From assembly GCA_012845835.1 (NCBI GenBank), contig JABAKD010000026.1, positions 6,689,014 to 6,753,013 of the forward strand: DNA of 64,000 nucleotides, given 5' to 3'. This document shows, piece by piece, positions 16,532 to 44,250 of this stretch. The stretch is from Undaria pinnatifida. Lineage: Eukaryota > Sar > Phaeophyceae > Laminariales > Alariaceae. Positions within the stretch are counted from its first letter, which is position 1, and the number at the start of each line of letters is the position of its first letter. The translations under genes and the position numbers were made by a program. Below the pieces are notes generated by a model. The model worked only from the letters and a program-made list of their open reading frames with translations. It did no database searches and was not told the origin of the DNA.

Positions 16532-17081
16532 ATGTATCGCCATCCCTCGCCCAACTCCTGTTATAACACGCTCAAGACGGACCAGGAAGAATTCAATGTA
16601 TCAAGAGCGATGCTCAACAAGCTCACCACGCAGCAGCACCTCCTGCTGCGAGAGCTCGAGCGCACGAAACGCCGTTTGCGCGAGGAGATTTGGAAACGCG
16701 AGGGGCGGACAGCCGACGCCCTACCAGCTGATCACCACCAACCAACGCCGCCGATTAAGTCACGAGGTTATTCGCGGGAATCTAAGCGCCGGACATTGTT
16801 ACCGTCAAAACCTTCAAATGACCAATCGAAGTCTTCAAACCATCAGTCGAAATCTTCAAATCACCATCACCATCAGTCGCCAACGATACTAAACGAAGTC
16901 GGGCGTGGACCACCAGCGGAGGGTGCCTGCTTGAAACGGAGCCGCAGCGAGGCCGGCATGAGCTGCGTCGAAAACGATCCGGAGGGCGAGGACAAGGCGA
17001 ACTTAACAACAGTCAAGCCCGGGAGGGATCGTCCTACCCCTTCCACCAGGATTGACATGCTGCCCGTAATGGCGTCAACTG
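16532..17081 (+). CDS. Large gene, exon 1 (coiled-coil N-terminus)
   Basis: The frame starts at an ATG (MYRHPSPN) and reads through a helical, charged segment (QEEFNVSRAML, then LLRELERTKRRLREEIWKRE) typical of a coiled coil. A Ser/Lys/Asn/His-rich linker and an acidic stretch follow. It ends in phase 1 at a strong donor (ACTG|GTGAGT), which matches the phase of the next exon. If the acceptor at CTCAAG (about 16591) is used instead, this is an internal exon and the first 20 residues are not translated. Confidence 0.65.

Positions 17082-44250: not shown

Follow-up and report, generated by a model that had tools for sequence, protein, structure and literature searches.

IQ, WW, B-box and EF-hand exons in a 28-kb chain of the brown alga Undaria pinnatifida: one gene or, probably, two neighbours

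Multicellularity arose independently in brown algae, and to our knowledge little is known about their calcium signalling and cytoskeletal scaffolds. In the 64,000-nucleotide stretch of Undaria pinnatifida DNA analysed here (the window), exons for IQ motifs, WW domains, zinc B-boxes and EF-hands follow one another on one strand, and a first-pass annotation had joined all of them into a single 28-kb gene. Do these exons encode one protein, or has the chain merged two neighbours? A multi-gene IQ-WW-B-box set, if true, would provide candidate calcium-regulated adaptors of a new class.

Exon chain and split domains

Frame-by-frame reading of the window (G+C about 50%) allowed us to rebuild 17 exons and 16 introns on the + strand between 16532 and 44250 (Table 1). 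Joined as one gene, the exons give an open frame of 4716 nt encoding 1,571 aa, whose sole stop is the TGA ending at 44250. The encoded order is a coiled-coil-like N-terminus, an IQ array, a WW domain, two B-boxes, two further WW domains, an EF-hand region and a charged tail. The domain search that the first-pass annotation had proposed as a check was run with Pfam on the joined protein and yielded, above cut-off, three WW stretches (64.4 bits in total), two ANCHR-like B-boxes (53.9), four IQ stretches (35.2) and EF-hand_6 (27.2); EF-hand_7 scored 25.8 bits, below its cut-off of 30. The domain list and order given in that annotation are therefore present in the DNA. In codon-usage scoring the reading frame came strictly top in 13 of the 17 exons with small margins (E1 and E9 tie, four other frames beat E6, and the score of E14 is slightly negative); this scoring is weak here and was left out as proof of exons.

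Table 1. Window positions of the rebuilt exons, the two putative genes and other elements
Feature	Position	Strand	Content	Remarks
E1	16532..17081	+	coiled-coil-like stretch followed by low-complexity sequence; putatively the first coding exon	frame open, donor GTGAGT strong (6.2); 5' end and start codon putative
E2	18539..19545	+	long, no Pfam domain (no family at E<=1)	uncertain 5' edge, with a higher score at 18503
E3	20744..21370	+	helical region and IQ motif IQQAVRG	IQ under the cut-off of 20.3 (15.5 bits); GC donor CAG/GCAAGC
E4	22594..22739	+	two IQ motifs: LQKLYRG, IQAVTRG	Pfam IQ 27.2 bits, 2 stretches
E5	24419..24566	+	degenerate IQ and first half of next IQ (..AALNIQ/)	no Pfam match alone; E4-E5 junction weak
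E6	25660..25761	+	second half of IQ (/RTYRGHRSR) and first half of next (TKIQ/)	IQ 14.7 bits alone
E7	28019..28163	+	second half of IQ (/ALIRGHLSKR) and first part of WW1	GC donor CAG/GCGAGA
E8	29955..30050	+	end of WW1 (GEALWEPP) and linker	acceptor 8.0, highest-scoring of the model
E9	34022..34224	+	B-box 1 and first Cys pair of B-box 2 (MECAEC)	ANCHR-like B-box 36.9 bits
E10	36432..36743	+	remainder of B-box 2 and Gly-rich linker	30.7 to 40.2 bits on joining
E11	37424..37550	+	WW2 with Tyr in place of the second Trp	alone under the cut-off of 26.9 (25.6 bits)
E12	38465..38598	+	WW3	38.6 bits; in-frame TAG 38596-38598, likely end of gene A
E13	40988..41083	+	likely first exon of gene B: ATG at 40988, MGLGGSTLLPAPDERLLKSIKMLDLSNTDLAK	start about 40934-40970 in one-gene model
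E14	42115..42235	+	EF-hand 1, loop degenerate	aligns with one exon of C1 relative
E15	42682..43001	+	EF-hands 2-4 and FFPAFRLQ	EF3 loop DREKNGYIEKDE near-canonical; EF-hand_6 33.1 bits
E16	43271..43549	+	PAFxLQ motif continued, charged region	E15/E16 junction spanned by open frames of C1 and C37 relatives
E17	43984..44250	+	charged tail and stop TGA	
Gene A (putative)	about 16.5-38.6 kb	+	12 exons, about 1,200 aa	
Gene B (putative)	40,988-44,250	+	5 exons, 360 aa	
(TAC)n microsatellite	22793-24088		about 430 units	
E6 tandem array	25286-25707, 25727-25980			
CGGGT satellite	38769-38879		22 copies	
Cyclophilin-type isomerase exon	51082-51267	-		31.5 bits
Nested inverted repeats	57700-61322			
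Copia-type gag and Pol beta-barrel domain	62132-63978			30.4 and 38.0 bits

Several introns of the model cut through a domain. WW1 is interrupted by the E7/E8 intron and rises from 25.0 to 33.5 bits in Pfam once the two exons are joined, and B-box 2, cut at E9/E10 between its zinc-binding cysteine pairs, gains in the same search (Table 1). The IQ motifs are split as IQ/xxxRG at both E5/E6 and E6/E7; neither E5 nor E7 gives an IQ match alone and E6 gives a low one, whereas E5-E6-E7 joined reach 41.7 bits (Pfam). E5 to E8 are tied together because introns split their domains, and E9 and E10 likewise, while for the E8-E9 join the basis is phase together with a strong donor (6.9). In E7, a GT donor further 3' would keep an identical phase but would break WW1. 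Because exon joining completes these split domains, the IQ array, WW1, B-box 1 and B-box 2 are assigned to one predicted gene, referred to here as gene A, of which WW2 and WW3 are very probably also part.

Phase agreement between neighbouring exons had been put forward in the first-pass annotation as matching at nearly all of about 18 junctions and as hard to obtain by chance. With a blind rule, in which the best-scoring donor and acceptor were taken at each exon edge, phases agree at 10 of the 16 junctions compared with 6.25 expected by permutation (p=0.026). The agreement is thus retained in a weaker form than claimed, and over 16 introns. Many splice sites of the hand-built model were picked with phase in mind, and chance agreement is high because the majority of introns are phase 0. 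With weak acceptors and phase 0 at most sites, phase matching by itself is modest evidence, suggestive and not decisive; domain completion across exons is much stronger evidence for joining.

The chain could also be broken into three or more genes, with E1-E2 or E11-E12 as separate transcription units and only E3-E10 forming one gene. This arrangement appears improbable. The E1-E2 acceptor is indeed weak (-5.3), E2 carries no Pfam domain and the introns at E2/E3, E10/E11 and E11/E12 interrupt no domain, but the E1, E2 and E10 donors rank first among all candidates, E11-E12 has a phase-consistent splice pair summing to 3.3, and WW exons accompany B-box exons at three other loci. Moreover, roughly the first 70 residues of E3 contain no in-frame ATG, so that E3 probably needs an upstream exon.

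Repeated sequence was also observed within and beside gene A. E6 closes a degenerate tandem array with three copies of the exon start (spacing 176 and 181) and two of the exon end (spacing 190), and a local IQ profile still gives 15.7 bits for one extra copy at 25300. The array looks like exon duplication, which may be a way for the IQ array to grow. The E4-E5 intron consists mostly of the microsatellite, and the CGGGT satellite lies just 3' of the WW3 exon, in an intron or intergenic.

The link between the WW3 and EF-hand exons

We consider it probable that the chain holds two co-directional neighbour genes, gene A (IQ-WW-BB-BB-WW-WW) and gene B, an NCS/CBL-like EF-hand gene, with a boundary that we infer from sequence between E12 and E13. 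This reading is favoured because of the weak E12-E13 splice signals, the stop after WW3, the MGxxxS start and a stand-alone relative of the EF-hand module on contig C37. E12-E13 is one of the two weakest splice junctions, with a best phase-consistent sum of -2.8 (E12 donors score -0.2 for GC and -1.9 for the GT alternatives; phase-consistent E13 acceptors reach -2.6 at best); E4-E5 is lowest at -3.7 and all others lie between -0.2 and 9.9, on a scoring matrix that is generic rather than brown-algal. The WW3 exon reads in frame into its TAG six bases past the putative E12 GC donor. On the other side, E13 contains two in-frame ATGs, one of which (40988) opens MGLGGS, an N-myristoylation-type start; of 4986 ATGs counted over all six frames in the window and in 16 of 58 retrieved loci, 42 (0.84%) are followed by MGxxx[ST]. 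We take the sequence at this ATG to be laid out like the N-terminus of an NCS-type sensor, and provided that the ATG is the start, MGLGGS matches the NCS/CBL-type GxxxS consensus. A GXXXSX consensus is described for NCS-1 and calcineurin B in an excerpt of PMC4415241.

Against two genes, the one-gene E12-E13 junction is phase-consistent and without a stop, the E4-E5 junction inside gene A is weaker still, and a T occupies position -3 of the E13 ATG. Nor need a fused EF-hand tail be common to relatives. A single gene, in which splicing joins the GC donor at 38589 (or the GT at 38594) to E13 and yields a 1,571-aa scaffold with its own EF-hand calcium switch, is accordingly kept as a possible though rather unlikely alternative. 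It has in its favour the frame that stays open from 16532 to the final stop, and GC donors are found twice more among the three of the one-gene model, at E7 inside the completed WW1 and at E3 with a strong consensus. Yet the junction it needs is flanked by a stop on one side and an MGxxxS start on the other, the EF module has a stand-alone relative, and fusion is seen in none of the relatives examined. Of the original 28-kb gene, the union of IQ motifs, WW domains and B-boxes in one protein is upheld by the split domains, whereas the EF-hand exons more likely form a separate small adjoining gene. A hand-built, phase-consistent gene model can merge two neighbours, and E12-E13 is the junction that decides here.

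On the two-gene reading, gene B would encode an NCS/CBL/calcineurin-B-like protein that opens with a myristoylation-type start, has four EF-hands with one good Ca2+ loop among them, and continues through a PAFxLQ helix into a charged tail. Alignment to relatives gives four EF-hand units, of which one has a near-canonical loop by reading (DREKNGYIEKDE); the Pfam matches are a single EF-hand_6 stretch and a single EF-hand pair. Calcium sensing, which the first-pass annotation had attributed to the whole protein, is thus weaker than stated, with one of four loops near-canonical. In a sequence search of the PDB the EF-hand region matched NCS, CBL, calcineurin B and calaxin proteins, best calaxin (8.8e-8); an AlphaFold model of E15 alone (pLDDT 51.9) was too poor for a fold search. 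Within gene B, the predicted E15/E16 join is independently supported by the C1 and C37 relatives, each with one open frame across it. The putative E13/E14 join is weakly supported by the C1 relative, because just four residues of its exon fall on the E13 side.

A C-terminal segment, P-x3-[FY]PA[FL]x[LM]Q, is common to at least four genes of this genome (L036, L034, L006 and window 42921-43300) and sits after EF-hands or EF-like units in three of them. The segment alone, from L036 and L034, matched no Pfam family above cut-off.

Relatives elsewhere in the genome

A search of the genome for ANCHR-like B-boxes returned nine matches at E<=0.01, two of them in gene A. Five of the seven other loci were read with about 7 to 12 kb of flanking sequence and two (C1:16.47 Mb and C29:12.18 Mb) with about 1.5 kb each way. 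Since four of the six sequences behind the local B-box profile come from loci that were then scanned with it, this profile is not independent at those loci, whereas Pfam is. WW exons lie on the B-box strand at three of the five flanked loci, and two of the three also have IQ motifs. Followed along its strand, C36 reads IQ, WW, B-box, B-box, IQ (WW 19.1 bits; IQ 24.2 bits, above the cut-off of 20.3, and 19.8, below it). C32:4.06 Mb reads WW, WW, B-box, B-box, WW, with a partial second B-box (14.4 bits) and WW scores of 25.3 and 18.5, and C2 reads IQ, B-box, WW, with a WW of 28.7 bits, the only one of the three loci above the Pfam cut-off of 26.9, and IQ scores of 15.7 and 19.2, both below cut-off. 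These are orders of exons, and a single gene per locus is putative. C32:22.11 Mb has several B-box-like exons, with IQ-like exons by eye only. No WW or IQ was found in the flanks of C1:12.81 Mb, nor within about 1.5 kb each way of the two loci read over that distance.

On the opposite strand of the B-box flanks local profiles gave no WW or IQ match at >=10 bits, although a loose IQ regular expression matched there at C1:12.81 Mb and C2. WW domains are common in this genome (at least 81 matches at E<=0.01, with 150 of 163 candidates scored), so that some of their co-occurrence with B-box loci may be due to chance. Since the order recurs in part at other loci of the genome, the IQ/WW/B-box portion seems to be a family rather than an isolated case.

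The EF module has its own relatives. The one on C37, whose exons were joined by eye, begins ATGGGCCAGGTC (MGQVIS) directly after a stop codon and continues into EF-hands; it carries YPAFVLQTQMQEKILGSKFW and has the PAFxLQ motif in common with gene B. No IQ, WW or B-box was found on its own strand in the 3.8 kb upstream of its ATG, nor in about 23 kb upstream of the C1 relative (>=10 bits in both cases). Conversely, no EF-hand or PAFxLQ segment lies downstream of the IQ/WW/B-box loci on C2, C36 and C32 in the flanks examined (at C36, 1.5 kb past the last IQ). The relatives are few and distant, flanks are short in places, and local profiles can miss intron-split motifs. Viral contigs and bacterial and archaeal genomes, collections that are not eukaryotic, held no relative.

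Known families and the proposed role of the two putative genes

IQGAP proteins have the order CH, coiled coil, WW, IQ, RasGAP-like. Gene A shares with them an IQ array and WW domains together with a coiled-coil-like part, but has neither a CH nor a RasGAP-like domain (none at E<=1 in the joined protein), its IQ array precedes the WW domains, and it has two additional B-boxes. Its tandem zinc B-boxes resemble those of TRIM/RBCC and ANCHR-type proteins and match Pfam ANCHR-like_BBOX, but are joined to IQ and WW. Pfam found no RING (at E<=1) or FYVE domain in the assembled protein; a zf_RING-like match in a B-box 2 fragment is below threshold (14.4 bits against a cut-off of 27) and coincides with the B-box. 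Heterokont class XXI myosins, from the same eukaryote group, are reported in an excerpt of PMC3942036 to have IQ and WW in their tails. Gene A differs from them in having B-boxes. That it is such a tail with its motor overlooked is highly improbable, as no motor was found in the assembled protein (Pfam), and none lies on contig C33 among the 75 motor matches listed for the genome (65 of 179 candidates scored); we rejected this candidate. Because the IQGAP, TRIM and myosin tests fail, gene A is regarded as a candidate unnamed scaffold family. A PDB sequence search with E3-E10 gave a best E of 0.058.

Gene B resembles NCS, CBL, calcineurin B and calaxin in its EF-hand region and MGxxxS start, and differs from them in three loops that are degenerate by reading, in the PAFxLQ segment and in its long charged tail. 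Calaxin is reported in an excerpt of PMC4415241 to be absent from stramenopiles and to lack a myristoylation consensus. The first-pass annotation knew of no named family with the full order; we likewise found no open-access full-text paper that brings IQ, WW, B-box and EF-hand together, from which absence elsewhere does not follow, but partial orders do exist at other loci of this genome. Oomycetes may have proteins with similar domain mixes, a possible lead.

Judged from its anatomy, with about six IQ or IQ-like motifs and B-boxes whose zinc ligands read as complete, gene A is probably a calcium-responsive adaptor. As a RING-less scaffold it would seat calmodulin-type light chains on its IQ helix, its WW domains would dock proline-rich partners, and its tandem B-boxes would supply surfaces for protein-protein or self-association, whereby calcium would alter which partners the scaffold keeps together. 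From adjacency we speculate that gene B could be a light chain for gene A. More tentatively still, these loci might represent a brown-algal lineage-specific RING-less IQ-WW-B-box family, in which one gene has acquired a myristoylated EF-hand sensor, either fused to its C-terminus or encoded by the neighbouring gene as its own dedicated light chain; we hold this as doubtful.

Downstream of gene B the window contains a cyclophilin-type isomerase exon on the minus strand. Further on are nested inverted repeats, with 1,057-nt arms that are 96% complementary and 1,509 nt apart, which probably represent a transposable element. The Copia-type gag and Pol beta-barrel domains near the end of the window are read as an LTR retrotransposon, which may extend off the window.
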